NCBI GenBank assembly: GCA_013213905.1
Contig: JABSSQ010000519.1
Coordinates: 1-56,137 of the forward strand
Length of the DNA stretch: 56,137 bases
Direction: 5' to 3'
Source of the DNA: Verrucomicrobiales bacterium
GTDB lineage: Bacteria > Verrucomicrobiota > Verrucomicrobiia > Verrucomicrobiales > DEV007
The notes beneath the pieces are model-generated. The model made no database searches and was not told where the DNA came from. It was given only the letters and a program-made list of their open reading frames with translations. The position numbers and the translations under genes are program-made. This document shows positions 14,377 to 48,323 of this stretch, one piece after another. Within the stretch, counting starts at the first letter, position 1; every line of letters starts with the position of its first letter.

Positions 14377-15690
14377 CTATTTTGAGTTCAGGTATTCGAC
14401 GAGGGTGGGAACGTCGTCGCTGCTGGAGAGCAGTGGCTTCGGGTTATCTATTCTGCCGGCGGGGCGGATGCCTTCGGCGATGGAGGCGACGTGGGATTCG
14501 AGTGCTTCGACCAGTTCGGTGACGATGTCAGGATGCTGGGCGGCAATGTTGTTCTCTTCTCCCAGATCGGTTTCGAGGTTGTAGAGCTCGGTGATGGTTT
14601 CCTTTTTGGCCGGGTAGTGAATGAGCTTCCACTTGCCGCGTCGGGCACCGCCGTTTTCGTAGAAGAGAATCTCGTGTGGTGATTTGGCCTTCCGGTCACC
14701 GAGCAGGATGTCGCTGATATCATGGCCATCGAGGATGCGGTCGTTGGGGGCTGCCAGGCCGGCGATTGAGGCGATGCTGGGCAGCAGGTCGATGGTGGCG
14801 CCGATTTCAGAAGTGACCGAGGCCGCCGGGATTTTTCCGGGCCACCAGGCGAGGGTGGCCACGCGCATGTGGCCTTCATACTTAGGGCCGAACTTGTGAC
14901 CGCGGAGCGGGCCGGAGGAAGTCTTGCCGGCACCGCCGTTGTCGTTGGTGAAGAGGACAAAGGTGTTCTCGTCGAGCCCGAGCTGGCGGAGGGTATTGAG
15001 GATGCGTCCAGTGCTGTGGTCGATTTCCCCGATGAGGGCTCGCATGACGTCGCCGCCGGCGGCTTCGAGACGTTCGGGTGTGACCATGTGAGGGGAGTGC
15101 ACCGCGGAATGGGGGACGTAGGCAAAAAACGGCTCGTCCTGGTGACGGATGATGAACTCGACGGCGGCCTCGGTGATCGCGTCAGTGATGCGGGCCTGGT
15201 TCTCGGCATCGGGAATGTGAGCGACGGGTTCGTTTTGAACAATCCACGGGAGCGGCGGATAGTTGCGCTTCTTGTTGCCATTGACCCACATGTCGTTGGA
15301 GTAGGGGATGCCCTGGTATTCGTCGAAGCCCTGGGCCAGTGGCATGAATTCCGGCTGATCGCCGAGGTGCCATTTGCCGAAGCAGCCGGTGGCGTAGCCG
15401 CCCTGTTTGAGTAGGTCTGCGATGGTGATTTCGTCAGGATTCAGTCCGCGTTCATCGGCTGGGAAAACGACGCTTCTACCCATTTCGAGACGGTCCGCGT
15501 AGCAGCCGGTGAGCAGGGCGGATCGGGATGGGGTGCAGGCGGTGGAACTGACATAGAAGTCGGTCAGCTTGAGGCCTTCGGCGGCCATGCGATCGAGGTT
15601 GGGGGTGGGGTGGTCGGAGCCAAACGGGCCGATGTCGCCGTAGCCCATATCATCGATAAAGATGACGACCACGTTGGGTTGGTCACCGGG
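14377..15690 (-). other. Sulfatase domain C of the fusion (approximate bounds)
   Basis: QPNVVVIFIDDMGYGDIGPFGSDHPTPNLDRMAAEG...STACTPSRSALLTGCYADR...CFGKWHLGDQPEFMPLAQGFDEYQGIPYSNDMW. Confidence 0.85.
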
Positions 15691-30197: not shown

Positions 30198-31184
30198 ATG
30201 ACCCCCTGTGCCCCCACTACCTGGAAGAAGTTGCTTGAGAAGGCAGGGCAACTTCCGCAAGAAGCGATGCTGCTGTCTGAGGCGACAGATGAAAGCAAAC
30301 GACTTCGGCGGACCTTCGATCCTGCATTTCCTTTCGAAATTCACTCTTTTTGCTTTCCTGACCACAAAGAGAACCTCGGAACTGATTGGCTCAATCTGCA
30401 CGACTACCTGGAGTTGATCATTCCCAGTTCCGGTTCCGGGCGATTTTGCATGGGAGACCATGAAGTACAGTTTGAGCCGGGTGATCTTCTCATTGTCGAG
30501 ACGATGAAGCTGCACGGAGTCACGGAGACCCAAGGGGAGCATGAGTCGATTGTGATTTTCTTCATGCCGGAGTTCGTCTTTCATCCTGGCTCCGTGCTGT
30601 GCGACTATGAATTTCTCAGCCCGTTTTTTGGGCGTCAAGGTGGGGAATCTCCGATTTTGAGGCGAGACGATCCTTCGGCAGCAGGAGTGCATCAGGCTCT
30701 GATCGATTTACTGGATGCTTACCAGAAAAATTTCGACGCTTCGACATGCAAGCTTCGTCTGTTAGGGGTATTGAACGAGCTTCGGCTCAACCTCGGGTCA
30801 ACCGCATTTACCGAAGTGGAGTATAACCAAAGGCAACGCAGCGTGGATACCATTGTCCCGGTGATCGATCATTTGCGTGAGCATTTTTCGGAATCACAGA
30901 GTCTGCCGGAGCTAGCGTCGATGGCGGGTATGAGCCCAACTCTATTTAAGAGTCGGTTTAAAGCCGTGACAGGCAGCACCTTCACCCAGTATCGCAGCCA
31001 TCTGCGCATTTCCGCGGCGGCTCACCTTCTCTTGGAGAGCGATCTTTCGATTGGGGAAGTCGCCCACTCGGTTGGCTTTTCGGACCAAAGCTATTTTGAT
31101 CGGCGTTTTCGAGAACGATTCCGGAAAACGCCCCGTGAATACAGGATGAACGGGGCGGTTCGGCAGCCAGCCGAGGCAGTCTGA
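30198..31184 (+). CDS. AraC-family transcriptional regulator with cupin-like sensor
   Basis: Cupin-like GRFCMGDHEVQFEPGDLLIVETMKLHGV; C-terminal LPELASMAGMSPTLFKSRFKAVTGSTFTQYRSHLRISAAAHLL...IGEVAHSVGFSDQSYFDRRFRERFRKTPREYR. Confidence 0.93.
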   Translation: MTPCAPTTWKKLLEKAGQLPQEAMLLSEATDESKRLRRTFDPAFPFEIHSFCFPDHKENLGTDWLNLHDYLELIIPSSGSGRFCMGDHEVQFEPGDLLIVETMKLHGVTETQGEHESIVIFFMPEFVFHPGSVLCDYEFLSPFFGRQGGESPILRRDDPSAAGVHQALIDLLDAYQKNFDASTCKLRLLGVLNELRLNLGSTAFTEVEYNQRQRSVDTIVPVIDHLREHFSESQSLPELASMAGMSPTLFKSRFKAVTGSTFTQYRSHLRISAAAHLLLESDLSIGEVAHSVGFSDQSYFDRRFRERFRKTPREYRMNGAVRQPAEAV

Positions 31185-31218: not shown

Positions 31219-31286
31219 TGTCCAATAGTTTTAAAAATATGTCCCATAGTCCAAGCCATCATGGGCGGTCGCGGGACATCTTATTG
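31219..31286 (+). promoter_or_regulatory. Putative AraC-type operator/promoter upstream of giant gene 1: TGTCC direct repeat (31219, 31240; 21-bp spacing) plus CATCTTATTG at 31277
   Basis: Same elements at the same spacing occur upstream of giant gene 2 (37970..38037). Confidence 0.6.
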
Positions 31287-31292
31287 ATAGTT

Positions 31293-31335
31293 CCGTTCAG
31301 CGGCAGGCTTTCCCCGTTTGGCCTGACCTGAACGG
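31293..31335 (+). promoter_or_regulatory. Imperfect stem-loop in the putative 5' UTR of giant gene 1
   Basis: CCGTTCAG...CAGGC pairs with GCCTG...CTGAACGG. Confidence 0.4.
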
Positions 31336-31431
31336 GCTGTCGGATTCCTCCAGAACCCCCACTCTCCGCAGGATGCGTCTTCAGCACTCGTTGAATACGC
31401 TTCCCGACGGAAGCTATCCCCAAAAATCCCC

Positions 31432-34400
31432 ATGTTCAGATCGAAACCCTCGTTAGGGCTGGTGATCTTTTTCACCATGCTGTCGTTCTCCTGTCATGTC
31501 TTCGCTGACAGAATCCAACACCTCGACGCGGTCCAGGCCGCTTCCGTCATCGGAAATCCGGTCACGCAGTGGACGGATCTCAGTGGCTTCGATAATCACG
31601 CCACGCCCTCATCCGGTGGAGATGTCACGTTCCCTGGCACCACCACATTCGGCAGTGGCCTGGACGGGCTCGATTTTGCTCCGACCAAGAGCACGCTCGC
31701 ATTGTTCTCCTCGACGGACTCGGATGTCTGGCTGGATCAGACGGCTGGGAATGGATTTACGGTGTTGATTGCCTACAAGGTGAACTCGGTGGTGGATGAC
31801 TGGAACGATCTGCTGGGCAACAGCTCGAGCGTCAACTCGGGGTTCCATATGCGGATGAGCAGAGGCGGGAGTATGCGAGCTTCTTTGGGGGGGACAACGA
31901 CGATTATCAGTGGGCAGAGCGCCGCTGCGGGTGACACCGTGGTCTTCACCTTTCGCTACGATCCCGCGACTTCTCAGATGCGACTCTGGGATTCGCTGAA
32001 CCAGATTGAGACATTCGGGACCGTGGCACCCGGTGATTTCTCCAATGGGAGTCCCGTTCGAGTGGGGGCGACGACCGCCAACGTGCGCTTTTCGGACGTG
32101 CTTGTCGGTGAAATCATGGTGCACGACACTGCCCTGTCGAATGAAGCGATCGAGTTGTTGGAGGAACATCTCGTTTCCAAGTGGGACACGGTTGGGGCTC
32201 CCTTGATTCATTTGACTTCATCCGATCCGGAAAGTGTTCAGGGTGATCCGGTGACGGCGTGGGAGGACCAAAGTGGTAACGCTTATGATGCCGTGGCCGG
32301 AGTGGGAACCGTCGGCTTTCCCGGCGCGACCCAGTTCAGCAATGGAAATGACGCTCTCGACTTTGGCAGTGTCCGAAACAGTTTAAATATCGCCACGGCG
32401 GCCGACTCGGATGCCTGGCTGGACCAGACGTCAGGTAATGGCTTTTCTGTGTTTGTGGCGTTTAAGACAGAATCGCTGAATACCAGTAACTGGAATGACC
32501 TGATCGGAAACACCAGTGGTGTCGCGTCAGGATTTGGACTTCGCTACAACCAGACGGGGACCATGCAGGCCTACCTCGGAGGTAACAGTATTAACGTGGC
32601 AGCAGATCCCGTAGTGGCGGGGGACGAGGTGGTCTATTCCCTGCATTACGATCCGGTGGCGTCAGAATACCGGTTCTGGAATTCAAAGACTGAGACCGAG
32701 GCGGTGGTTTCATTGGCTCCGGGTGATTTCTCCAACGGCGCTCCCGTATCCCTGGGAACTACGAACAGCGGCGGGCGCTATTTCAATGGATTGATTGGTG
32801 AGGTTCGGGTCTACGACAGTGCCTTGTCAGCAGACAAGGTTCAGGAAGTCCGCGATCAATTGATCGATCGCTGGGCGCCATCCGCATTGCCGCCTCCACC
32901 TCCTGGACCGGGATTCCCGAATGTCACCCAGACATTAGGTAATACCCTGGGGCAATTTAAAGCAGATCCCATCGACGACAATGTGCGGGTGGTGGTATTG
33001 GACTACGTGAACGGCTACCTGTTGATGGATACTCGTGGTCTCGAAGCGGATGGCATGGGGCACGCTCAGCAGGTTTGGGACATTTCCGATCCTGCGAATC
33101 CGGTGGAAGTGCATCGGATCGGAGCGATTCGGGGGATGCACAAGTCGACTCGCTTTCTGCCGGACTACCGCGTTAATCATGCGGGTGATGATTTTTACAA
33201 TGTCAGGGACATGCTCGATATTCGGAAGCAGAATCCTCCGGGCTTGGCGCTTTCCGATGTGGGCACTCGTGGGGCTTACTTGCTTCCCTACCAGTACCTG
33301 GTGGAGGGCACTACCGGGGCGATTCAAATCACCGACACCCGGATTGGCACTACGCCACTCTCGAGCTCAAGCGCTCATGGGTTCGAGGGGCAGACGATTC
33401 CCATCGGCAATCTGCTGATTGTAGCGGGTATTCGGGGGCAGGGCTCCCGGGCCGTGGCGACCTACGACATCAGCGATCCATCGAATCCTGTCTTTCTTGA
33501 TGTGATTGCCTCCAATGACCCTGTGTGGAATGAGACGGAGCCTCCCTATGAGGCTCAAATTTGGAAGAACTTCATCGTCCTGCCCAACGTTGCCGGCAGT
33601 GATGACTGCGCCTTCATTGACTTCTCAGATCCGACCGATTTGCAGTATGTGACCAAGATCAGCGACCTTCCTGGCCGCACTCGATACGCTCAGATGCAGG
33701 ATGATCATATGTTTCTCGGCTTCGGGAAATACGATATGTCTCCGCTGCTGACAGGTGGTGACCCACTACTGGTAGATACGTTTTTTCAGGACAGCGAATA
33801 CCTGTTACCTTTGGGGAATCTGCTCGTCAGTGCCGAGAACTCAGAGCAGGGCACAATCGAAGGCCAGCCGACCGGTCAAACTAAGATCATTGCGCACCAG
33901 GCGGCGCCGGATACGAACCCACCCACGGTGGCCTATCACAGCCCGGCTGCCGGGGCGACCGGGCAGGCGGTGACGACCCGGGTCGGGTTGCTCATCCACG
34001 AAGTGCTCGACTACGCCACGATCAACGAGACGACCTTTCGCGTGTTCCCTGACGCGGGTGGCGCCGATGTCCCGGGAACCTTTACGGTGATGGATAAGGA
34101 TGTGGTCACCTTCACGCCTGATGCTCCGCTGGCAGAAAACACAACCTATCGAGTGCAGCTCGAAGCGGATGGCATCAAAGATGTGTCGGGCAACGGAATG
34201 GCCGCGTTCTCTTATACTTTCGCCACGGTTGGGCCGGGCGGAGCGGATCCGGTCATGATCACTGAGGTGAACAACTCCACTTATCCCGCGCCGGTCAATG
34301 GTTCGACCACCCTGACGGCAACGGCACAAGGCGGAGGCGGTACCCTGGAATACAACTGGACTTTCGGAGACGGCACCGCTTCGACGGGCTGGAGTACGTC

Positions 34401-37400
34401 GACCGGCAGTATTGCGCACACCTACACGGCACCGGGGCACTACACGGTGATTGTGCAGGTGCGGGACAACAGCAATCCCACCAATATTAACACGTCGACC
34501 ATGGTGGTGACGGTCAGTGATGCAGCGCCCAGTTCGGTGGCGAGCAAGGGAACCCAGATTCTTCTCGATGGAGCCAGCCGATTGGTCTGGACCGTGAACC
34601 CTGACAACAACACAGTGACCTCGATCAATGCGGATACGATGGCGAAGACGCATGAGGTGCCGGTGGGGGCGGATCCTCGAAGCATTGCGCAAGCTGCTAA
34701 TGGTGATCTGTGGGTGGCCTGCCTCGATGACGATCAGATTGATATTCTCAGTAGCACGAATGGAGCGCTGTTGAATACGATCAATCTTCCGATTGGATCT
34801 CGTCCACACGACGTGGTGTTCAACAGTGGTGGGGTCTACGCCTACGTAACGCTGAAAGGAAGTGGGAAAGTCGCTCGAATCGATCCCGTGACTCGTCAGA
34901 TCGATGCCACGCTTGATGCGGGGTCGACGCCCACGGCGCTGGCGGTCTCAGCGAGCGGAGACAAGCTTCTCGTGAATCGATTCATCTCTCCCGACAGTAG
35001 CGGAGAGGTTAGATCTTTTGACAATGCAAGTAACGGGTCCTTTGGGCTGGAGCAGATGGTGAGCCTGCAGGAAGACACCACCTCATCAGACACCGGCGAG
35101 AGCGCCCGGGGACTTCCCAACTACCTCGCGGATGTGGCGATCGATCATGCCAATGGCTACGCCTACGTCACTGCGAAGCAGGACAACATTGCCCGTGGGG
35201 AATTTCGGGATGGCCTATCTTTGACTCACGATTCCACAGTGCGGGCCATCCTTTCGAAGATCGATCTCGCGACCAATACGGAAGTCTTCTCCGAGCGCGT
35301 CGATATCGATGATGCGTCTCAGCCTTCCGCCCTGTTGTTTGCGCCGCTCGGAGATTATCTCTTTGTCGCGATCCAGGGCAATAACGAGGTCCAGATCATG
35401 GACACGTTTAATGGTGGTTTTGTGGCGACTCTTTCGACGGGGCTAGCTCCTCAGGGAATGGCTTTCGACCCGGTTAACAATCAGCTCTTTGTGAAGAACT
35501 TGAATGATCGCTCGGTCACGGTTCACGACCTGACGAGCGGCCTCCAGAAAGGGCAGTTTAATAACTCAGCGGTGGCTACCGTTTCGACCGTGGCCAATGA
35601 AGTGTTTGCAGCAGACGTGCTTCTTGGGAAACAGGTCTTCTACAATGCGGCGGACGAGCGCATGGCGTTTGAGGGGTATCTCAGCTGTGCGGCCTGTCAC
35701 CAGGATGGTGATCACGATGGCCGGACCTGGGACTTCACTGATCGCGGGGAGGGCCTGCGGAATACGACGAACTTGCGGGGGCGCGCGGGAATGGCGCACG
35801 GTAACGTGCACTGGAGTGCCAACTTCGATGAGATCCAGGATTTTGAACTGGATATCGTGAACGGTTTTGGTGGAGATGGTTTCACCGCAGAAGGCCCCAA
35901 CCCGTCCTTGGGCGCTCCCAATGCCGGTCGCAGTGTGGAACTCGACGCACTGGCTGCTTACGTCACTTCGCTAGGGAACGACTCGGTCGAGAAAAGTCCT
36001 CACCGGGATCTCGATGGCACGCTCTCGGATGCGGCCGCGATCGGGAAACAGCTTTTTGAAGGAACCATCGTGCCAGCGTCCGGCACCGCACTCAATTGTG
36101 TGACCTGTCACGATCCCAATTCTGGTTATACCGACAGTGTGGTGGGCGACGGCACCGCAGCGCTGCATGATGTGGGAACCTTGAAGGCTTCTTCTGGTGA
36201 GCGACTGGGCGGTGGGGGTTCTTCTCTCCTTGGTATCGATACGCCGACCTTGATGGGACTGCACGCGTCGGCACCGTATTTGCACGACGGAAGTGCAGCC
36301 ACATTGTCGGAGGTGTTTGACCAGTTTGATAGTGCGGCCAACCTTGGGGAAGATGGTGTGGCCCATGATCTCTCCGCGACTGGCTACAACTTGACGGCAG
36401 GGGAGAAAGACGACTTGATTGCTTTCCTCCTGCAGATTGATGGAGGTGCCGATGTGACGCCGCCGGCGATTCCATCTGGATTGCTTTCCAACGCAGGCGA
36501 TGCCTCGGTTTCTCTGGGTTGGGGCGACAATACCGAAAGCGACTTCGCGAGTTTCAATGTCTACCGCTCGCAGTCTCCGGGCACCTATGGTGCGGCCCTC
36601 GCGACCGGCTTGACGAGCAGTGACTACATTGATTTTACGGCGCTCAACGGCGTGACTTATTACTATGCCGTGACGGCAGTTGATTCGCTGGGCAATGAGT
36701 CGGAGATCGTGAACGAAACCAGCGCGACGCCAACCAGTCCGAATCCGGCGATTCGGGTGACGGAATACTACCTGACCACGGGTGACTTCAGTGGTACGAC
36801 TACGACAGTCACACTCGATCAAGCACTGGCGGACGATTACTTCATTCTCGTTCGAGGATCACGAACCGGGGATGGTTCCTCTAATCCAAACAACGACTAC
36901 GTCCGTGTCGTATCGGTGCCTGGCAGCAAGGGAGATCTAGCGGACTCCGGAAGCAGCACCTTGATTGGGCTGCAGCGTGATGTGGCGGACCATGATTGGG
37001 AAGGGGTTGTTACGGTAGTGGAATGTCAAAACTCACAGAGCCCGGCGGGCTTTGCTCTCGTCGATGCGGTGGAGACCTCAATGACCGGTACCTCTGGCAC
37101 CGATAGCGGAGCGGCCTGGAGTGATATCAATCAGGTGGTTCTTTTCGGTGGGTATCGTGGCGGTGGCGTGGAAATGTCGGGCATGCCAACCAATCGCAAG
37201 CAGGGAACGGGTTGTTACACTCGTCTCTATCCGAGTGGCAGCAACACGCTGAACTGGGTGAGGAATGCCGGTGGTGAAACGATGTTCGACGCAACCATGA
37301 CGACCTTCGTGGTCGAGTGGGGCAGCGAGTGGAACATACAGAGAGTCAATGTGGCAGGAAACAACGGCGGCGGCGGCGCTGATGTCGCGGGCGAATACAC

Positions 37401-37869
37401 CACGGCCGCCATCAGCCCGGTGGTACGAGCCAACACCTGGGTGTGGGGAACAGGGACTCGCATTGATTCCGGGATTGGAGATTGTGCGGAATCCTGCTTG
37501 ATCACCCTTGGTGACGGTGTCGTCGAAAACGTGACCGAGTCGACCGTAGCCGTGGGATCCGAGTATACTGATGCCTATGACTTTGACGTCTACACTCTGA
37601 CGCACGCGGATCTGAATGTGGATCATCGTTTCAAAGCAGATGGGGATTCCACTGTGCTGGACTTGCCGGTGACGGTGGATGCCACTTCTTCTGGAGCACG
37701 ATTCGGATGGAGCTACAACGGGTGTAATGGAACGGGATCCGCCTTCCCGCGTCCTCGGATGTGGGCGCGATACACGGATGATTCTACGGTGACGGTCAGT
37801 CGGGGTTACGATGGGCAGAACTTCCCGGCGTGGGTGCAGGGGATTGACCTGTCAGAACTGAATCAGTGA
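31432..37869 (+). CDS. Giant secreted multidomain c-type-heme protein: two LamG-like domains, LVIVD-like repeats, Ig-like, PKD, YVTN beta-propeller, di-heme cytochrome (CCP/MauG-like), FN3, conserved C-terminal domain
   Basis: 2145-aa ORF; signal peptide; LamG-like repeats; PKD YNWTFGDGTASTG...HTYTAPGHYTVIVQV; YVTN-like repeats; heme motifs CAACH (35686..35700) and CVTCH (36097..36111). Confidence 0.85.
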   Translation: MFRSKPSLGLVIFFTMLSFSCHVFADRIQHLDAVQAASVIGNPVTQWTDLSGFDNHATPSSGGDVTFPGTTTFGSGLDGLDFAPTKSTLALFSSTDSDVWLDQTAGNGFTVLIAYKVNSVVDDWNDLLGNSSSVNSGFHMRMSRGGSMRASLGGTTTIISGQSAAAGDTVVFTFRYDPATSQMRLWDSLNQIETFGTVAPGDFSNGSPVRVGATTANVRFSDVLVGEIMVHDTALSNEAIELLEEHLVSKWDTVGAPLIHLTSSDPESVQGDPVTAWEDQSGNAYDAVAGVGTVGFPGATQFSNGNDALDFGSVRNSLNIATAADSDAWLDQTSGNGFSVFVAFKTESLNTSNWNDLIGNTSGVASGFGLRYNQTGTMQAYLGGNSINVAADPVVAGDEVVYSLHYDPVASEYRFWNSKTETEAVVSLAPGDFSNGAPVSLGTTNSGGRYFNGLIGEVRVYDSALSADKVQEVRDQLIDRWAPSALPPPPPGPGFPNVTQTLGNTLGQFKADPIDDNVRVVVLDYVNGYLLMDTRGLEADGMGHAQQVWDISDPANPVEVHRIGAIRGMHKSTRFLPDYRVNHAGDDFYNVRDMLDIRKQNPPGLALSDVGTRGAYLLPYQYLVEGTTGAIQITDTRIGTTPLSSSSAHGFEGQTIPIGNLLIVAGIRGQGSRAVATYDISDPSNPVFLDVIASNDPVWNETEPPYEAQIWKNFIVLPNVAGSDDCAFIDFSDPTDLQYVTKISDLPGRTRYAQMQDDHMFLGFGKYDMSPLLTGGDPLLVDTFFQDSEYLLPLGNLLVSAENSEQGTIEGQPTGQTKIIAHQAAPDTNPPTVAYHSPAAGATGQAVTTRVGLLIHEVLDYATINETTFRVFPDAGGADVPGTFTVMDKDVVTFTPDAPLAENTTYRVQLEADGIKDVSGNGMAAFSYTFATVGPGGADPVMITEVNNSTYPAPVNGSTTLTATAQGGGGTLEYNWTFGDGTASTGWSTSTGSIAHTYTAPGHYTVIVQVRDNSNPTNINTSTMVVTVSDAAPSSVASKGTQILLDGASRLVWTVNPDNNTVTSINADTMAKTHEVPVGADPRSIAQAANGDLWVACLDDDQIDILSSTNGALLNTINLPIGSRPHDVVFNSGGVYAYVTLKGSGKVARIDPVTRQIDATLDAGSTPTALAVSASGDKLLVNRFISPDSSGEVRSFDNASNGSFGLEQMVSLQEDTTSSDTGESARGLPNYLADVAIDHANGYAYVTAKQDNIARGEFRDGLSLTHDSTVRAILSKIDLATNTEVFSERVDIDDASQPSALLFAPLGDYLFVAIQGNNEVQIMDTFNGGFVATLSTGLAPQGMAFDPVNNQLFVKNLNDRSVTVHDLTSGLQKGQFNNSAVATVSTVANEVFAADVLLGKQVFYNAADERMAFEGYLSCAACHQDGDHDGRTWDFTDRGEGLRNTTNLRGRAGMAHGNVHWSANFDEIQDFELDIVNGFGGDGFTAEGPNPSLGAPNAGRSVELDALAAYVTSLGNDSVEKSPHRDLDGTLSDAAAIGKQLFEGTIVPASGTALNCVTCHDPNSGYTDSVVGDGTAALHDVGTLKASSGERLGGGGSSLLGIDTPTLMGLHASAPYLHDGSAATLSEVFDQFDSAANLGEDGVAHDLSATGYNLTAGEKDDLIAFLLQIDGGADVTPPAIPSGLLSNAGDASVSLGWGDNTESDFASFNVYRSQSPGTYGAALATGLTSSDYIDFTALNGVTYYYAVTAVDSLGNESEIVNETSATPTSPNPAIRVTEYYLTTGDFSGTTTTVTLDQALADDYFILVRGSRTGDGSSNPNNDYVRVVSVPGSKGDLADSGSSTLIGLQRDVADHDWEGVVTVVECQNSQSPAGFALVDAVETSMTGTSGTDSGAAWSDINQVVLFGGYRGGGVEMSGMPTNRKQGTGCYTRLYPSGSNTLNWVRNAGGETMFDATMTTFVVEWGSEWNIQRVNVAGNNGGGGADVAGEYTTAAISPVVRANTWVWGTGTRIDSGIGDCAESCLITLGDGVVENVTESTVAVGSEYTDAYDFDVYTLTHADLNVDHRFKADGDSTVLDLPVTVDATSSGARFGWSYNGCNGTGSAFPRPRMWARYTDDSTVTVSRGYDGQNFPAWVQGIDLSELNQ

Positions 37870-37907
37870 CCGATTGATTGGTGCGCGGTCTATTTCGCAT
37901 ATGATAT

Positions 37908-37945
37908 CGAAAGCGCCCTGCTACAAAGCAGGGGGGGAGCTTTCG
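37908..37945 (+). terminator. Hairpin terminator-like structure between the two giant genes
   Basis: CGAAAGC-G-CCCTGCT-ACAA-AGCAGGG-..-GCTTTCG followed by a pyrimidine-rich stretch. Confidence 0.55.
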
Positions 37946-37969
37946 CTCTTTCTCGGATTTCGGCATGAA

Positions 37970-38037
37970 TGTCCAAAAGTCCTAAAGATATGTCCAATTC
38001 TGCAAGCCTGGCGGGTTGCAGTTAAGGCATCTTATCG
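37970..38037 (+). promoter_or_regulatory. Putative AraC-type operator/promoter upstream of giant gene 2: TGTCC direct repeat (37970, 37991; 21-bp spacing) plus CATCTTATCG at 38028
   Basis: Matches the element at 31219..31286 in sequence and spacing. Confidence 0.6.
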
Positions 38038-38184
38038 TCTTCAGCTTTTTTAGGCACTGTCGAAATCCCCATTTCACATGTTGTCGATCCGCACCCGCAA
38101 AATGTGCGCGGTTCGTGGATTGGTTAAGGTGTCAGGAGAAGGCTGTTGTGAACGCCACCTTCAATCCAACCCCCAAAAAACCTC

Positions 38185-41100
38185 ATGTGTGTTCAACCGA
38201 AGAAAGGTTTCCTTGTCGCTACAATCTTATCCACTCTATTTGCCGCGGTTGTTGGCGCCGCCCCCATTGGCAAAAAGATCGTCCTGAAGAACGTTGAGAA
38301 CGGCAAATACGTAACAGCCGATGCGGCGAGCGCCGATCGGCTGGAAGCGAGATTGGATACTGCGGATACCGACCGGGAGGAGTTTCTCGTCGAAGATGTG
38401 GGAGGTGGGGCCATACTGCTGAAGTCGGTAGCCACTGGCAATTACGTGCGGGTTGATACGAGTAGTCGGGACCGATGCTATGCCGTTGGAACCTCAGCCT
38501 CCGATACAGCGGCGCAGTTTCAATGGACTGAGTTCAGTGCGGGAGTGGTGCGGTTGCAGAGTCTAACGACGATGGAATTTGTGAGGATCGCGGGAGCAGC
38601 GAACACCTTAAGAGCCAATTCATCGAGTACCGGAACGAATACCCAATTTGAGTGGGAGATTTCCGGGGGGCCAGGTTTTCCCAATGTGACGCAAACCTCA
38701 GGAGCGATGCTGTCTGACTTCCGAACAGACCCGGTCGATGATGAGCTCCGCACGGTAGTCATCGATTATATTGACGGCTATCTCTACATGGACACCCGGT
38801 TCCTCGCGACCGGTGACTCGGGGCATACTCTGCAGACCTGGGATATTTCTGATCCGGTCAATCCGGTTGAAGTGGCGCGAGTTGGAGGGGAGAGAGGCAT
38901 GCACAAGTCGACCCGGTTCTTGCCTGACCACCGGGTCAACAATCAAGGAGACAAATTCTACAATGTCAGCGACATGCTCAATATCGTGCCGGAGAATCCG
39001 GCGGGGTACAACGTATCCTCGAAAGGAACTCGAGGCGCCTATCTGCTGCCCTATGAATACTTCAGCGGAAATGCGGGCAATACCATCGATATTGTTGATA
39101 CGCGGATCAGTACGAGTCCCGTCGCTTCGGTGTCGAGTCACGGGTTTGAGGGGCAGACTATTCCCATTGGGAATCTTCTGATTGTTACATCAATCAGGGG
39201 CAGTGGTGTTCGAGGTGTCGCCACCTATGATATCAGTAATCCTGCGGCACCGGTGATGTTGGATGTCATTGCGCCAAACGATCCCTTGTGGTCGGAGAAC
39301 GGCTCGGCCTACGAATCCTTCGTTTGGAAGAACTTCATCGTCTTGCCGAATGTGCAGGGAACGGATGATGTCGAGTTTGTCGATTTTTCGGATCCGACGG
39401 ACCTCAAGATTGTGACCAAGACCGGCGCTCTCCCGGGGATCACCCGCTACGCGCAGTTCCAGGACAATCACATGTTTCTCGGATGGGGTAAGTATGATCT
39501 AACTCCGGTCGAGAGTGGTAATCCGCCCACGCTTGTCGGCACCTACGAACAGGCGGGAGAATACATGCTTCCTTTAGGTAACCTCCTCGTTTGTGCTGAG
39601 AACACGCACCAGGGCCGACCCTACGGCTCCAGGATTTTTGCTCATCAAGCGGCTCCTGACACCAACCCGCCGACGGTTGCCTATCACAGCCCTGCAGCCG
39701 GGGCGACCAATCAGGCCGTCACCTCCCGAGTTGGTATTGTCATCCACGAAACCTTGGACTACGCCACCATCAATCCAACGACGTTTCGGGTCTTTCCGGT
39801 GGGCGGGGGCGCGGATTTGACAGGCACGTTGAATGCCATGGATAAGGATGTCCTCACTTTTACACCGGACGTCGATCTCGAGGAGGGAACCACTTATCGT
39901 GTTCTGCTTGAAGCCGGGGGGATCAAGGATGCCGCGGGTAATGGCATTGCCGAGTTTTCTTTCGACTTCACCACGGCAGGTGCCGGAAGCGCTCCTCCGA
40001 TTTTGATCACGGATGTATCGAATTCCTCTTATCCGGCTCCCGTTGGGGGCTCGACGAACCTGTCGGTAGTGGCGACGGGAGGACAGGGGGCCTTGTCCTA
40101 CAGCTGGGATTTTGGCGACGGAAGCCCGGCTACCGGATTCTCGACGTCGAGCCAAGCGAGCCACACTTATGCTTCGGCAGGGCATTACACCGCCCGGGTT
40201 CAGGTTCGGGACAGCAGTGCGCCGCCGCAGATCAGCACCGAGACGATCGTGGTCACGGCAACCACGGTGCCGTCCGGGCCACTTTCTACCAAGGGTACTC
40301 AAATCTTGGTGGATGAATCGAGTCGCCTCGTCTGGTGTGTGAACCCTGACAACAACACGGTGACTGCGATGAATGCGGACACGCTGACCAAAGCGCTCGA
40401 GGTGTCGGTGGGTAAGGACCCTCGCAGTATCGCGCAGGCTTCTAACGGCGATCTCTGGGTGACTTGCCTGGATGACGATCGCATCGACATCCTCGACGGC
40501 ACGTCCGGAGCCGTGCTCAACTCGATTGATCTGCATCGAGGATCCCGACCACACGATGTCGTTTTCAATAGTGCCAAAACCTATGCCTACGTCTCTCTCA
40601 AAGGGAGCGGGAAAGTGGTGCGGATTGACCCGGTGACGAGATTGGTCGATGCCACCCTCGATGCGGGAGCGACACCCACCGCTGTTGCTGTTTCATCCGG
40701 AGGAGATCAACTCCTGGTCAACCGTTTCATCTCGCCGGACACCAGCGGTGAAGTGCGTTCCTTTGACAACGCCGGTAATGGATCCATTGCGTTGGATCAA
40801 ACCATGACCCTGGCCATCGATACGGTATCGGAAGATTCCGGTGATGGCGGTCGCGGGCTGCCGAACTACCTCGCCGACATCGCGATTGATCCCGGGAACG
40901 ACTTTGCTTACGTGACCTCCAAACAGGACAACATCGCCCGCGGACAGTTCAGGGACGGCCTGCCATTGACTCACGACACCAGTGTTCGTGCGATTCTCTC
41001 CAAGATCGATCTTTCGACCCATACGGAAGTGTTCTCAGCACGAATCGATATCGATGATGCTTCTCAACCTTCTGCTCTTTTGTTCTCTCCCTTAGGCGAT

Positions 41101-43617
41101 TACCTGTTCGTCGCGATCCAGGGCAACAACGAGGTCAAAGTGCTGGATGCGTTCAACGGCAATATTGTGGTGACGCTTCCCGCGGGTTTGGCTCCTCAGG
41201 GGCTCGCTTTCGATGCGGTGACGAATCAACTTTTCGTTAAGAACTTGATGGATCGAACCGTGGTGGTACACGACTTGAGCCAGGGACTCCAGGAAGGCAA
41301 GTTTGGACAGCCGCCGGTGGCGACGATCGCCACCGTGGCCACGGAGACGATGACGGCTGAGGTCCTGCTCGGGAAGCAGGTTTTCTACAATGCGGCCGAT
41401 GAACGCATGAGCTTCGAGGGATATTTGAGTTGTGCCGCTTGTCACCAGGACGGGGATCATGATGGTCGCACCTGGGACTTCACCGATCGCGGAGAGGGCT
41501 TGCGCAACACGAGTAACTTGCGCGGACGTGCCGGAATGGGGCACGGCAATGTGCACTGGAGTGCGAACTTCGATGAGATTCAGGACTTTGAACTGGATAT
41601 CGTGGGAGGCTTTGGTGGAAACGGATTCATCAGCTCAGGCGGTCCCAATCCTTCCCTGGGTGCACCGAATGCAGGGCGCAGTGTCGAGCTGGATGCTCTG
41701 GCTGCCTACGTCACCTCCCTCGGGCTGGAGTCGATTGAAATTAGTCCGCATCGCAATGGAGATGGCACACTGACAGCCGAAGCCGCGATGGGTAAGCAAC
41801 TCTTCGAGGGAACCGTGATTCCCGCCTCGGGAACCGCGCTCAGTTGTGTGACGTGTCATGATCCAGCCACGGCCTTCACTGATAGCGTGGTCGGGGACGG
41901 GACGGGCGCTTTGCATGACGTTGGAACGATCAAGGCTTCATCGGGTGCGCGTCTTGGCGGCGGGGCTTCTTCTCTCTCCGGAATCGATACGCCGACTTTG
42001 CTGGGCTTGCATGCTTCGGAGCCGTATCTGCATGATGGCAGCGCCGTGACGATTGCGGGCGTCTTTGATCAGTTTGACAGTGGAGCGGCTCTTGGACAGG
42101 ACGGATCTGCTCACGATCTTTCGGTAACCGGTTACAACCTCACGGCAAGTGAGAAGGATGATCTAATTGCTTATCTGATGCAGATTGATGGCAGTCCTGA
42201 TGTGACTGCGCCTTTGGAACCTTCCGGCTTGCTTTCGTCGGCAGGGAACAATTCGGTCAGTTTGAATTGGGATGACAATACGGAGAGCGATTTTGCCAGC
42301 TACAATGTCTATCGTTACTTAACGCCTGGTGATTTTAGTTCGGCGTTGGTGACAGGATTGACGAGCAGTGACTATATCGATTTCACGGCGCTCAATGGAG
42401 TCACCTATTACTACGCCGTCACAGCAGTGGATGCGCTGGGCAATGAATCGGTCATTGTGAACGAGACCAGTGCCACGCCTTTCAATTCTAATCCGTCGAT
42501 TCGAGTGACGGAGTATTACCTTACGACGGGGGATTTCAGTGGCACGACCGCGACAGTGACGCTGGACCAAGCCCTGGCCGATGATTACTTCATTCTCGTG
42601 CGAGGGTCACGGGCAGGGAATAATTCGTCATTTCCCAACAATGACTATGCTCGAATCGTATCGGTTCCAGGCGGCAAGGGAGATTTGGCCGATTCTGGTA
42701 GTAGCGTTTCCGTGGGCTTGCAGCGTGCAGTGGCGGATGTTGACTGGGAAGGGGTGGTCACCGTGGTGGAATGCCAGAACGCCTCGAGTCCGGGTGGGTT
42801 CACTCTGGTAGATGCGTTGGAGACGTCGATGACCAGCACGAATGGCACGGATAGCAGTGCTGCCTGGGGAGATATTAATCAGGTGGTTCTGTTTGGGGGG
42901 TATCGAGGTGGTGGTGTCGAAATGTCAGGCAGTCCCACCAACCGAAAACAAGGGACCGGCTGTTACACCCGCGTCTATCCGAGTGGCAGCAATACGCTGA
43001 ATTGGACCAGAGATGCTGGGGGAGAAATCATGTTTGATGCGACCATGACCACCTTTGTGGTGGAGTGGGGCAGTGAATGGACTGTGCAGCATGTGAATGT
43101 GGCCGGAAACAGCGGCGGTGACGGAGCGGATGTGGCGGGTGAATATACGACCGCTGCGATCAATCCGGTGGCGCGTGCGAATACCTGGGTTTGGGGCACA
43201 GGAACACGGATCGATTCCGGGACGGGGGATTGTGCCGAGGCTTGTCTCATCGCTCTGGGAGACGGGGTTGCTCAGAACGCGACCGAATCGACGGTGGCGG
43301 TGGGATCGGAGTATACGGACGCATATGATTTTGATGTCTACACGCTGACTCATGCCGACCTCAATGTGGATCATCGTTTCAAAGGTGATGGTGATTCTGC
43401 TATCTCGGATTTGCCGGTGACGGTGGACTCGGCTGCGGCAGGTGCCCGTTTTGGTTGGGTTTATAATGGCAGCAACCGAACCAATAGCGGATTCCCTCGA
43501 CCAAGAATGTGGGCGCGCTATACGGATGGGGCGACGGTCACCATCAGCCGGGGCCGAAGTGGACAAACTTTTCCGGCCTGGGTACAGGGAATCGACCTTT
43601 CAGGATTGAATAATTGA
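38185..43617 (+). CDS. Giant secreted multidomain c-type-heme protein, paralog of 31432..37869, with N-terminal fascin-like beta-trefoil module in place of LamG
   Basis: 1810-aa ORF; N-term IVLKNVENGKYVTADAASADRLEARLDTADTDREEFLVED...RLQSLTTMEFVRIAGAANTLRANSSSTGTNTQFEW; heme motifs CAACH (41431..41445) and CVTCH (41845..41859); rest collinear with the upstream paralog. Confidence 0.85.
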   Translation: MCVQPKKGFLVATILSTLFAAVVGAAPIGKKIVLKNVENGKYVTADAASADRLEARLDTADTDREEFLVEDVGGGAILLKSVATGNYVRVDTSSRDRCYAVGTSASDTAAQFQWTEFSAGVVRLQSLTTMEFVRIAGAANTLRANSSSTGTNTQFEWEISGGPGFPNVTQTSGAMLSDFRTDPVDDELRTVVIDYIDGYLYMDTRFLATGDSGHTLQTWDISDPVNPVEVARVGGERGMHKSTRFLPDHRVNNQGDKFYNVSDMLNIVPENPAGYNVSSKGTRGAYLLPYEYFSGNAGNTIDIVDTRISTSPVASVSSHGFEGQTIPIGNLLIVTSIRGSGVRGVATYDISNPAAPVMLDVIAPNDPLWSENGSAYESFVWKNFIVLPNVQGTDDVEFVDFSDPTDLKIVTKTGALPGITRYAQFQDNHMFLGWGKYDLTPVESGNPPTLVGTYEQAGEYMLPLGNLLVCAENTHQGRPYGSRIFAHQAAPDTNPPTVAYHSPAAGATNQAVTSRVGIVIHETLDYATINPTTFRVFPVGGGADLTGTLNAMDKDVLTFTPDVDLEEGTTYRVLLEAGGIKDAAGNGIAEFSFDFTTAGAGSAPPILITDVSNSSYPAPVGGSTNLSVVATGGQGALSYSWDFGDGSPATGFSTSSQASHTYASAGHYTARVQVRDSSAPPQISTETIVVTATTVPSGPLSTKGTQILVDESSRLVWCVNPDNNTVTAMNADTLTKALEVSVGKDPRSIAQASNGDLWVTCLDDDRIDILDGTSGAVLNSIDLHRGSRPHDVVFNSAKTYAYVSLKGSGKVVRIDPVTRLVDATLDAGATPTAVAVSSGGDQLLVNRFISPDTSGEVRSFDNAGNGSIALDQTMTLAIDTVSEDSGDGGRGLPNYLADIAIDPGNDFAYVTSKQDNIARGQFRDGLPLTHDTSVRAILSKIDLSTHTEVFSARIDIDDASQPSALLFSPLGDYLFVAIQGNNEVKVLDAFNGNIVVTLPAGLAPQGLAFDAVTNQLFVKNLMDRTVVVHDLSQGLQEGKFGQPPVATIATVATETMTAEVLLGKQVFYNAADERMSFEGYLSCAACHQDGDHDGRTWDFTDRGEGLRNTSNLRGRAGMGHGNVHWSANFDEIQDFELDIVGGFGGNGFISSGGPNPSLGAPNAGRSVELDALAAYVTSLGLESIEISPHRNGDGTLTAEAAMGKQLFEGTVIPASGTALSCVTCHDPATAFTDSVVGDGTGALHDVGTIKASSGARLGGGASSLSGIDTPTLLGLHASEPYLHDGSAVTIAGVFDQFDSGAALGQDGSAHDLSVTGYNLTASEKDDLIAYLMQIDGSPDVTAPLEPSGLLSSAGNNSVSLNWDDNTESDFASYNVYRYLTPGDFSSALVTGLTSSDYIDFTALNGVTYYYAVTAVDALGNESVIVNETSATPFNSNPSIRVTEYYLTTGDFSGTTATVTLDQALADDYFILVRGSRAGNNSSFPNNDYARIVSVPGGKGDLADSGSSVSVGLQRAVADVDWEGVVTVVECQNASSPGGFTLVDALETSMTSTNGTDSSAAWGDINQVVLFGGYRGGGVEMSGSPTNRKQGTGCYTRVYPSGSNTLNWTRDAGGEIMFDATMTTFVVEWGSEWTVQHVNVAGNSGGDGADVAGEYTTAAINPVARANTWVWGTGTRIDSGTGDCAEACLIALGDGVAQNATESTVAVGSEYTDAYDFDVYTLTHADLNVDHRFKGDGDSAISDLPVTVDSAAAGARFGWVYNGSNRTNSGFPRPRMWARYTDGATVTISRGRSGQTFPAWVQGIDLSGLNN

Positions 43618-44346: not shown

Positions 44347-44444
44347 GTCTGCTTGTGGTATTCAACTCTGCGCGAGATTGACCTGCTCGAAGGCGGTATG
44401 GGTTTTGCGTTGACTGGCAGGTGAGCGCCGGAGATCCTGTAACG

Positions 44445-46910
44445 ATGAAGTGTGGGCGGCATAATTTGGCATTTTTGCTGTTGCTGACCACTCCTTGCTT
44501 TGCTGGCGAAATAGATGTGACCTTCTTTGAAAAGAACATCCGCCCAGTTCTGATCGAGAGCTGCTACGAGTGTCATTCGGTCGAGGCGGGAAAGTCCAAG
44601 GCGGGACTCTTGCTCGACACCCGCGAAGGAACGCTGACCGGCGGCGATAACGGCCCTGCCGTGGTGCCGGGAGATCCTGAAGCAAGCTTGCTTTTTGTGG
44701 CGATCACGCACGCAGAGTCCGACCTCGAGATGCCTCCTAAGAAGGCGAAACTGCCGGACACGGTCATTGATGATTTTCGGCGCTGGATTGAAGGGGGCGC
44801 TCCGGATCCAAGGGACGAGCCGCGGGGCAAGTTGACCGACGCTCCGATTGACTACGAGTCCGGGCGCGAATTCTGGGCGTGGCAGATGCCTCAATGGCCG
44901 GATATTTCTGAATCCAAATTTCAATCGGAGTGGGCGCGCTCTGACATTGATCGACTGGTCCTGTCAGGATTGGAGAAAGCGAACCTGCAACCGTCCGAAG
45001 ATGCGGGAACTGAAGCGCTGCTGCGCCGCCTCTATTTCAACCTGATCGGACTGCCTCCGACGGCAAAGGAATTGGGGGCATTTCGTCGCGAAGTGGAGGC
45101 GACGTCCCGGCAGGAAGCCCTGAAGAAGAAAGTGGATGAGTTGCTGGCGTCCGGGTTTTACGGGGAGCGTTGGGGGCGCCATTGGCTGGATGTGGCCCGC
45201 TTCGGGGAGTCGAGCGGCAAGGAATCCAACTTCACCTATCCGGAGGCCTGGAGGTATCGGGACTATGTCATTGATGCATTCAATTCGGATATTCCCTTCG
45301 ATCGCTTCATTGCCGAGCAGCTGGCGGGCGATCTTCTTCCGGCGGACGGTGATGCGGAACGAGCCCGTTTGCAGGTAGCGACGGGATTTCTTGCCGTGGG
45401 AGCCCGGAGCTTGAACGAGATGAATCGCGATCAGTATGAAGCTGATAATGTCGATGAGCAGATCAATGCAACGACCCAGGCGTTCATGGCTTCTACCGTG
45501 GCCTGCGCCCGTTGTCACGATCACAAGTTCGACCCGTTCCTGATGAAGGATTATTACGCGCTGGCGGGAATCTTCAGCAGCACGAAAACTTTCATCGGCA
45601 CCAAGATCGAACCGGACAACGTGATTGGAGGGGAGTTAATCCATCTTCCTGACAGCCTCGGTCTGCCGGTATTCAATCGTCCGATCACACCCCAAAAAGT
45701 CGAAGAACTCAAACTCGAGCGAGTTGCCGTTCTCGAGAAACAGGAAGAAGACCAGGCTCTGGCAGCGAAGGCAATCAAAGAGGGCAAAGACCCGACGGAG
45801 TTTTTCAGTATCCAGATGGCGATCGGTAATATCTGGAAAGTGGGCCGTATCGACGGGGCGCTCGCCAAGGTCGATGATTCCGGTAAGCCGCATGTCATGT
45901 GCATGGGGGTTCAGGAAGCCGGGGAAGTTCGCGATGAACCGGTTTATGAGAGAGGGGATCTTGCCCAGCCCGGTGATGAAAAGATTCCCCGTGGGTTTCC
46001 TGAAGTAGTGGTGATGTCAGGGGCTCCTCAAATCGACGGAAATGTGAGCGGGCGTTTGGAATTGGCTGAGTGGCTGGCTCATCCAGAACATCCGTTGACC
46101 GCACGTGTTCTCGCGAATCGTGTCTGGCGGCACCTTTTCGGGATTGGTCTCGTCAGGACGACTGATAATTTTGGATACAATGGGGAGCGTCCCACACACC
46201 CGGAGCTACTCGATTACCTCGCACTTCGACTGGTGGAGAAGCATGAGTGGTCGGTGAAAGGATTGATTCGGGAGATTGTTCTTTCACGGACCTTCCAGCA
46301 GGCTTCCGATTTTCGGGAAGACGGGTTCCTGGCGGATCCGGAGAATCGCCTGATGTGGCGGGTCTCAAAACGCCGTCTCGAAGCCGAGGCCATTCGCGAT
46401 GCCATGTTGGTGGCGGCCGGTGACCTCGATGTGAACCGACCCGAGGGATCATTGATCGGCCGTCTCGGCGACCGCAATGCAGCTCTGCTCGGGTTTGCCA
46501 AGGGAGTTCCTTCGGATCTCGACGGGAGCCGGCACCGATCCGTTTATCTTCCGGTGGTAAGGGACCGCCTGCCCGACGTGCTGGAGTTGTTTGATTTCGC
46601 CGAAACGAGCCTGGTCACCGGCCACCGCGAAACAACGAACGTGCCGACCCAGGCTTTGTATTTGATGAACAGCGACTTCGTTACCGCGAGGGCTGAATCG
46701 CTGGCAAAGTTGGTGGCGGACCGGGAGCGTGACGCGGCGGTTCGAACTGTCTTTGAGCGATGTCTCAGCCGTCAGCCGGATGCGGATGAGCTGGAGTTGG
46801 CTCGAAGTTTCTTTGAGCAATTGGATCAGAGCGATGTCCCGAAGCACGAGGGCATGAAGTTGTATTGTCAGTCGGTATTGAGCACGGCTGAATTCCGTAA
46901 CCTCGACTAG
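44445..46910 (+). CDS. PSD1 / Planctomycete cytochrome c plus DUF1549-DUF1553 protein
   Basis: IRPVLIESCYECHSVEAGKSKAGLLLDTREG (CxxCH), DRLVLSGLEKANLQPSEDAG...LLRRLYFNLIGLPPT, ACARCHDHKFDP, LADPENRLMWRVSKRRLEAEAIRDAML. Confidence 0.93.
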   Translation: MKCGRHNLAFLLLLTTPCFAGEIDVTFFEKNIRPVLIESCYECHSVEAGKSKAGLLLDTREGTLTGGDNGPAVVPGDPEASLLFVAITHAESDLEMPPKKAKLPDTVIDDFRRWIEGGAPDPRDEPRGKLTDAPIDYESGREFWAWQMPQWPDISESKFQSEWARSDIDRLVLSGLEKANLQPSEDAGTEALLRRLYFNLIGLPPTAKELGAFRREVEATSRQEALKKKVDELLASGFYGERWGRHWLDVARFGESSGKESNFTYPEAWRYRDYVIDAFNSDIPFDRFIAEQLAGDLLPADGDAERARLQVATGFLAVGARSLNEMNRDQYEADNVDEQINATTQAFMASTVACARCHDHKFDPFLMKDYYALAGIFSSTKTFIGTKIEPDNVIGGELIHLPDSLGLPVFNRPITPQKVEELKLERVAVLEKQEEDQALAAKAIKEGKDPTEFFSIQMAIGNIWKVGRIDGALAKVDDSGKPHVMCMGVQEAGEVRDEPVYERGDLAQPGDEKIPRGFPEVVVMSGAPQIDGNVSGRLELAEWLAHPEHPLTARVLANRVWRHLFGIGLVRTTDNFGYNGERPTHPELLDYLALRLVEKHEWSVKGLIREIVLSRTFQQASDFREDGFLADPENRLMWRVSKRRLEAEAIRDAMLVAAGDLDVNRPEGSLIGRLGDRNAALLGFAKGVPSDLDGSRHRSVYLPVVRDRLPDVLELFDFAETSLVTGHRETTNVPTQALYLMNSDFVTARAESLAKLVADRERDAAVRTVFERCLSRQPDADELELARSFFEQLDQSDVPKHEGMKLYCQSVLSTAEFRNLD

Positions 46911-46913
46911 ACG

Positions 46914-48323
46914 ATGAGCCCTCAATTTCCATTTTCCCGACGCAGTGCCCTCAAGAGTCTTTCTTCAGGGTTCGGCTACCTTGCCTTTGCCGGTCTGGCA
47001 GCGAAAGCCGCTGCGAAGGAGTCCGGTTTGTCATCCCGGCCCGGGCATTTTCCGGCCCGGGCCAAGCGGGTCATTTTTCTCTGCATGAAGGGTGGGCCCT
47101 CTCACGTGGACACCTTTGACTACAAGCCCGAGTTGGAGAAACGCGATGGCGAGCGTTGGCGCGGAGGAGCTGCCCGCCTCCTTGGGCCTCGTGCCGAATT
47201 TTCGCAGCATGGGGAATCCGGTCTCTGGGTGTCGTCGCTCTTTCCGAAACTGGCAAAGGCTCACGCGGATGACCTCTGTGTCATCAACAGCATGCACACC
47301 GATCTGCCGAACCATCCGCAGGCCTTCGCTCAACTGCATACGGGAAGCTTCCAGTTCATTCGTCCATCGCTGGGCGCGTGGTCGCTTTACGGGCTCGGGA
47401 CGGTGAATGAAAACCTTCCGGGTTTTATCACACTCAATCCGCCGGCCGATTTCGGAGGCGCGAACAATTACGGCAGTGCCTTTCTGCCGGCGGTCTACCA
47501 GGGGGCGAAGATTGGTGGTGGTCAGTTGCCGGCGATCTTTTACGCACTAACCGGAAAGACGGAGGAACCGGGGCCGCCGATGAAGAATATCGATGCGGCG
47601 ACGCCAAAAGCTTCGCAGCGGGCACAACTGGATCTCATCGCCGGGCTCAATCGACACAAGCTGAAACTGGATCAGTATAATCCTGAGGTTGAGGGGGCGA
47701 TCGAATCATTCGAGCTCGCTTTTCGAATGCAGGATGAAATTCCGGAAGTGCTGGATCTCGCGTCGGAGCCGGAATCGGTTCGCAAGCTCTACGGAGTCGG
47801 GCAGGGTGGTGGTAATGAGCGTTTTGCCAAGCAATGCCTGCTTGCCCGCCGGTTGGTTGAGAATGGAGTTCGATTTGTCGAGGTGACGGCGCCAACGAAT
47901 TGGGATCATCACAACCTGCTGCAGCAGGGACTCAATGAAAGTGCGGCCATGGTGGATCAGCCTATTGCCGCGCTGCTGACTGATTTGAAGCGTCGCGGAA
48001 TGTTGAAAGACACCCTCGTCATCTGGGCGGGAGAGTTTGGTCGGACGCCGTATGCCCAGGGTATGGGCGACGGTCGCGATCACAACAACAAGGGTTACTC
48101 GATCTGGATGGCTGGAGGCGGCACCAGGGGCGGATATGCTCATGGTTCCACGGATGATTTTGGCTACGCAGCCGTGGATCAGGCGGTGCATATCCATGAT
48201 CTCCATGCCACAATCCTTCACTTGCTCGGCCTGGATCACGAACGGCTCACCTACAATTATGCCGGTCGGGATTTTCGTCTGACGGATGTCTACGGCAATG
48301 TCGTGAAAGAAGTGGTAGGGTAG
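46914..48323 (+). CDS. DUF1501 secreted protein (Tat-type signal)
   Basis: SRRSALKSLSSGFGYLAFAGLAAKAAA; RAKRVIFLCMKGGPSHVDTFDYKPEL; LVIWAGEFGRTPYAQGMGDGRDHNNKGYSIWMAGGGTRGG. Confidence 0.93.
   Translation: MSPQFPFSRRSALKSLSSGFGYLAFAGLAAKAAAKESGLSSRPGHFPARAKRVIFLCMKGGPSHVDTFDYKPELEKRDGERWRGGAARLLGPRAEFSQHGESGLWVSSLFPKLAKAHADDLCVINSMHTDLPNHPQAFAQLHTGSFQFIRPSLGAWSLYGLGTVNENLPGFITLNPPADFGGANNYGSAFLPAVYQGAKIGGGQLPAIFYALTGKTEEPGPPMKNIDAATPKASQRAQLDLIAGLNRHKLKLDQYNPEVEGAIESFELAFRMQDEIPEVLDLASEPESVRKLYGVGQGGGNERFAKQCLLARRLVENGVRFVEVTAPTNWDHHNLLQQGLNESAAMVDQPIAALLTDLKRRGMLKDTLVIWAGEFGRTPYAQGMGDGRDHNNKGYSIWMAGGGTRGGYAHGSTDDFGYAAVDQAVHIHDLHATILHLLGLDHERLTYNYAGRDFRLTDVYGNVVKEVVG

Follow-up and report, generated by a model that had tools for sequence, protein, structure and literature searches.

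Closest described systems

The XylS/Pm, MekR/PmekA and MtlR/PmtlE systems have tandem head-to-tail half-sites of two boxes each with a period of 21 bp; half-site patterns in this group are TGCA-N6-GGNTA-N6 (XylS) and CACC-N5-CTTCAA-N6 (PMC4514859, PMC5481539). The promoter modules described here resemble them in their tandem 21-bp two-box half-sites, with the proximal one over the -35 region (PMC4514859, PMC5481539), and differ in their boxes (TGTCCA and TNCNAA), in a regulator that is only distantly related, in phylum and in targets. With araI1-araI2 of araBAD they share direct-repeat half-sites (there TAGC-N7-TCCATA), and with AraC the regulator shares a sugar-type N-terminal domain and a double helix-turn-helix (HTH); its model matches 2arc, 1xja and 2k9s. 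In contrast to AraC/araBAD, neither a distant loop operator nor CRP is in evidence here, and the regulator scores far below the cut-off of the NCBIfam AraC equivalog (68 vs 208 bits). Its best full-length NCBIfam match is RhaS (6e-20) and its ligand-domain fold is that of RhaR (5u93), but at 71.7 vs 288 bits the regulator stays well short of the RhaS equivalog cut-off. In RhaS operators, half-sites of 17 bp are separated by 16 bp, a layout unlike the 21-bp period found here.

Candidate promoter modules in the window

The window, i.e. the whole stretch of 56,137 nucleotides that was analysed, carries two modules, one before each of two giant genes:

30198..31184, + strand: AraC/XylS-family regulator, 328 aa, N-terminal cupin-like sensor and C-terminal double HTH (Pfam, AF2 model)
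31219..31225, + strand: copy 1 box A1, TGTCCAA (sequence; TGTCCA invariant in three copies)
31229..31235, + strand: copy 1 box B1, TTTTAAA (sequence; TNCTAAA in the other copies)
31240..31246, + strand: copy 1 box A2, TGTCCCA, 21 bp after A1 (sequence)
31250..31257, + strand: copy 1 box B2, TCCAAGCC, lying over the putative -35 site and agreeing with the GTCCAAG core after AraC orthologues
31277..31282, + strand: copy 1 -10-like hexamer CATCTT; its 27-bp distance to the T of box B2 is conserved in orthologues
31432..37869, + strand: giant secreted protein 1, 2145 aa, with Laminin_G, Big_5, PKD, beta-propeller, CCP/MauG and 2 CxxCH (domain search)
37970..37976, + strand: copy 2 box A1, TGTCCAA (sequence)
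37980..37986, + strand: copy 2 box B1, TCCTAAA (sequence)
37991..37997, + strand: copy 2 box A2, TGTCCAA (sequence)
38001..38008, + strand: copy 2 box B2, TGCAAGCC (sequence comparison of the copies)
38028..38033, + strand: copy 2 -10-like hexamer CATCTT (sequence)
38185..43617, + strand: giant secreted protein 2, 1810 aa, with beta-trefoil-like N-terminus, Big_5, PKD, beta-propeller, CCP/MauG and 2 CxxCH (domain search)

TGTCC starts at 31219 and 31240 in copy 1 and at 37970 and 37991 in copy 2, 21 bp apart in each, and CATCTTAT starts at 31277 and 38028, 37 bp past the second TGTCC in both. These sites and spacings, put forward in the original prediction, are present letter for letter at both giant genes. 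The prediction had also called the copies identical, which is incorrect: identity between copies is ∼62 % over 70 bp and ∼80 % in the module core, and the flanks on either side are at background. The intervening sequence, described as otherwise diverged, is so only in part, as T-N-CAAGCC at +31 to +38, which had been missed, is common to all three copies (the third lies outside the window; see below).

All three copies consist of two 21-bp half-sites, each TGTCC-N5-T-N3-AA, with a box A followed by a box B that is mostly TNCNAA: TGTCCAATAGTTTTAAAAATA and TGTCCCATAGTCCAAGCC in copy 1, TGTCCAAAAGTCCTAAAGATA and TGTCCAATTCTGCAAGCC in copy 2, and TGTCCATTTGTTCTAAACAAA and TGTCCAAAACTGCAAGCC in copy 3. 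In each, the distance to the start of CATCTT is 58 bp from the first T and 27 bp from the T of the proximal box B. With an assumed spacer of 17 bp, the expected -35 place is AGCCNN within the proximal box (AGCCAT, AGCCTG and AGCCAA); no -35 consensus was found at this spacing from CATCTT in the three copies, and the layout is thus that of a promoter that would need an activator. The module is best read as a candidate four-box AraC operator, (TGTCCA-N4-TNCNAA)x2, with a 21-bp period, the proximal box over the -35 and CATCTT as the putative -10.

Genome-wide occurrence and a third copy

The 4.96 Mb genome was scanned by pattern searches, with the reversed sequence as control. The exact pattern of the original prediction, for which a genome scan had been suggested, gave two matches and none in the control, far above chance. 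With the 26-bp repeat and up to three mismatches (chance expectation estimated at ∼0.03), a third copy was found at C256:2753 on the minus strand, TGTCCATTTGTTCTAAACAAATGTCC, with CATCTTTT at +58, the same offset as in the window. The composite TGTCC-N16-TGTCC-N7-CAAGCC-N19-CATCTT (22 letters) has exactly three perfect matches in the genome and none in the reversed control; with up to three mismatches, no genome-wide match beyond the three copies was obtained. The third module stands before a gene whose product is a secreted sulfatase (domains SGSH_C and CBM6), and the module, predicted for the two giant genes and present at both, has this further target outside the window.

The ATG of the sulfatase (C256, locus L037, minus strand 2695-2676) lies only ∼13 bp past CATCTT, which, with CATCTT as the -10, would leave its mRNA almost without a leader; the leaders of both giants are ∼145 nt long.

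Other candidate sites were rejected. Across the genome, the looser pattern GTCCAA-N14-16-TGTCC matched about as often as in the control and was dropped for naming further targets. A pattern of box B only, with up to three mismatches, gave extra matches on C124 and C228 (three mismatches each) vs three control matches; they were judged to be chance, and their contexts (pilus-type and thyA/folA-type genes) gave them no support. Two matches in congeners (G003 and G019, three mismatches each) equalled the control number and were likewise attributed to chance.

The regulator at 30198..31184

Pfam HTH_18 (1e-23) and HTH_AraC were both found above cut-off in the regulator, and Cupin_2 (3e-4) below it. 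The AF2 model (pLDDT 83.8) has a beta-rich N-terminal half; by Foldseek, this sensor half matched the ligand domains of RhaR (5u93) and AraC (2arc), and the HTH half (AF2 helices 236-319) matched the DNA-binding domains of AdpA, MarA and AraC. The modelled architecture, a double-HTH C-terminal domain with a cupin-like N-terminal domain predicted to serve in ligand binding and dimerisation, is that of the AraC/XylS family. The stop codon ends at 31184, and 34 bp separate it from the first site, close to the 33 bp at a related locus (L041); the gene had been correctly placed just before the first site, with a gap given as 35 bp.

AraC-domain proteins gave 17 matches in this genome. Downstream of a paralogue on C416, which is 37 % identical to the 30198 protein, stand TGTCCAA..TTTCC at a 21-bp spacing, TACTCT at 26 bp and then a giant gene; the three modules are more alike among themselves than to this C416 site.

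Operator-like footprint after related regulators

Relatives of the 30198 protein (32-44 % identity) occur in other Verrucomicrobiota and in Acidobacteriota. They carry a GTCCAA-type repeat at 21-22 bp just past the stop codon and a -10-like hexamer 26-27 bp further on; a clear repeat is absent in about half of them (L043, L045, L047, L048, L061). A weight matrix built from only the three own sites was applied to 180 bp around the relatives' stop codons, and 9 of 19 non-redundant relatives reached p<0.05 vs dinucleotide shuffles (Fisher 3.6e-9). Independently of the matrix, pairs of GTCCAA (≤1 mismatch) after AraC stop codons peaked at a spacing of 21-22 (7 of 23) and were near zero elsewhere. 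In 10 of the 13 relatives with a clear repeat, the distance from the T of the proximal core to a [TC]ANNNT hexamer was exactly 26 or 27 bp, vs a mean of 0.2 at other distances. Repeat and hexamer together followed 10-11 of 25 AraC gene ends, a set that includes a few near-duplicates, vs 0 of 449 other gene ends. When all loci were scanned (1.47 million strand-bases), seven strong matches were obtained, and each of them immediately follows the gene of an AraC relative; inspection of the data preceded the choice of core score and hexamer distance, and control sets gave no matches. The three own copies score under the strict scan threshold in box B, yet lie at the same distance (27) from it.

In a first register, GTCCAA of the orthologues had been equated with box A. 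This was ruled out by the -10 distance, according to which it corresponds to box B. In the Pedosphaera-like group the repeated core aligns with box B and there is no clear box A; apart from the window genome and its close relatives, no two-box half-sites are apparent. By this comparison, the element common to the family is box B (GTCC[AT]AG), and the eye-catching TGTCC repeat represents this lineage's version of box A. The proposal that the TGTCC repeat is the operator was therefore right as to the direct repeat, and needs amending in that TGTCC marks the A boxes only and the box shared by the family is B. The broader reading as an AraC-type operator is supported by the footprint after distant orthologues and by the conserved -10 distance, and the suggestion that the spacing is under selection agrees with the recurrence of 21-22 bp and 26-27 bp across families.

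Just past the AraC stop codon of the closest relative (L064/L126, 44 % identity), box A is seemingly GGAC[AG], with TSCAA as box B and TACCGT at 26 bp; box A and HTH residues may possibly have changed together there.

Giant genes and neighbouring genes

PF03150 was found above cut-off in both giants, with CxxCH at 1419/1556 and 1083/1221, and both are predicted di-heme CCP/MauG proteins. Hydrazine-synthase matches were rejected, as they lie far below cut-off and reflect only shared beta-propeller and CCP parts. Residues 162-1809 of giant 2 share 75 % identity with giant 1, but at fourfold sites the identity is 35 %, and the N-terminal parts adjoining the promoters are not homologous. The giants are taken to be old duplicates. 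With fourfold sites this diverged, flanks at background and non-homologous promoter-side parts, the conserved module appears to be held by selection.

Both giants have CCCCAAAAA(A)-CC-C-ATG at the start codon (31411-31434 and 38164-38187), which is not seen at other starts in the window; no Shine-Dalgarno sequence was found before either start codon.

The AraC clade holding the window protein has a support of 98/99. Its members directly precede giants with two CxxCH at L126 (2015 aa), L128 (1861 aa) and the C416 paralogue (2172 aa), and giants with one CxxCH at L127 (1230 aa) and L129 (1217-1227 aa). Some more distant relatives precede other secreted proteins; the genes after L044, L046 and L050 we take, by reading-frame resemblance, to be DUF4038-like glycoside hydrolases.

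Further genes were noted nearby and elsewhere in the genome. On C279 (locus L125, 3-7352), a giant ORF with a frame of 2449 aa and no CxxCH begins at the contig end, with its promoter beyond the visible sequence. Its C-terminal 474 aa are 72 % identical to giant 2, and this common module, which has no Pfam name, possibly serves in sorting or anchoring. In the window, 14377-20973 (minus strand) encodes a protein of 2198 aa that combines three sulfatase domains and one GH32 in a single chain, and 5672-9565 (minus strand) a protein with two sulfatase domains. Just downstream of giant 2, 44421-48323 carries a PSCyt1/PSCyt2/PSD1 (DUF1549/1553) protein followed by a DUF1501 protein, perhaps in one transcription unit with it.

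Distribution among related genomes

The 30198-type AraC gene is present in 1 of 75 family genomes, namely this one. Apart from the C416 paralogue in the same genome, no other member of the subfamily was found in 33 congeners or in the other 74 family genomes. At giant homologues in 18 other family genomes, which are without this AraC gene, no module was found where the promoter is visible. This co-occurrence of module and regulator supports the assignment to the 30198 protein that had been predicted, and together with the cis footprint and the synteny with giant heme proteins it constitutes evidence independent of the pattern from which that prediction was made.

Proposed mechanism and alternative explanations

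The modules are very probably class-II-type AraC-dependent promoters run by the 30198 protein and driving a small three-gene regulon of giant 1, giant 2 and the CBM6-sulfatase on C256. They have the class-II arrangement, i.e. tandem two-box direct-repeat half-sites with a period of ∼21 bp and a proximal half-site over the -35 at a fixed distance from the -10, the overlap with the -35 depending on the assumed 17-bp spacer. Two AraC protomers would bind head to tail on the 21-bp direct repeat, as with XylS at Pm (PMC4514859, PMC5481539). Within a half-site, one HTH would contact box A (TGTCCA) and the other box B (TNCNAA), in major grooves next to each other. The proximal box B would cover the -35 place, 27 bp before the -10 CATCTT, and the bound activator would substitute for the missing -35. 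Binding of a ligand, probably a sugar or oligosaccharide, by the cupin domain would lead to recruitment of RNA polymerase, and transcription would start at ∼31289 and ∼38040. What can be read directly from the DNA is the repeat with its geometry, the existence of a third copy, the footprint that follows orthologous regulators and the link with giant CxxCH proteins; binding, activation over repression, the inducer and the start sites we infer.

The modules might belong, as operators, to some other AraC-family member such as the C416 paralogue, the 30198 neighbour being coincidental or sharing the sites. The genome offers 17 AraC-domain matches, and cross-recognition is plausible given that the 37 % identical C416 paralogue has a 21-bp repeat of its own, TACTCT at 26 bp and a giant gene. 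Such an assignment is nevertheless unlikely, because the cis footprint sits directly after relatives of exactly the 30198 regulator in other phyla; the 34 bp between its stop codon and copy 1 (cf. 33 bp at L041) and the greater likeness of the three modules to one another than to the C416 site also speak against it. The overlap of the proximal box with the expected -35 would, taken alone, be compatible with steric repression, the AraC protein blocking the -35. As the AGCCAT, AGCCTG and AGCCAA sequences at this place offer no -35 consensus, an activator would be needed, and most AraC/XylS proteins whose tandem repeats adjoin the -35 act as activators (PMC4514859, PMC5481539); a repressor is accordingly quite improbable.

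The 75 % identity of the giants over 1650 aa would allow the likeness of the modules to be mere carry-over of a promoter in gene duplication, free of functional constraint. This explanation is already contradicted by the comparison of a conserved module core (∼80 %) with saturated neutral sites (fourfold sites 35 %, flanks at background). It also leaves aside the non-homologous promoter-side N-terminal parts, the third copy before an unrelated sulfatase gene and the same geometry in other phyla, and has next to no likelihood. Activation of the three promoters by the 30198 protein is the preferred reading.

Significance

That regulator and promoter belong to known kinds, a class-II AraC/XylS activator and its promoter, is well supported. 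No described AraC operator in Verrucomicrobiota was found in open papers, the coverage of which was incomplete. More tentatively, and less probably than not, an undescribed Verrucomicrobiota AraC clade may have the dedicated role of a transferable switch that controls giant secreted beta-propeller/di-heme proteins, with regulator, operator and giant gene moving as a cassette and the operator copied to the second giant and the sulfatase gene. Such a cassette would be present in 1 of the 75 genomes of the family; other families have near relatives, and Acidobacteriota more distant ones. If this reading is true, the small regulon so formed would serve to attack sulfated polysaccharides oxidatively.

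For Verrucomicrobiota, the analysis yields a specific pair of regulator and operator that can be tested, together with a sequence rule, and would place two giant di-heme proteins and a sulfatase in a single regulon. By the rule, a GTCC[AT]AG repeat at 21-22 bp with [TC]ANNNT 26-27 bp further on, right past the regulator gene, promoters can be predicted in many other genomes, and the inducer of the AraC protein would point to the substrate of the giants.
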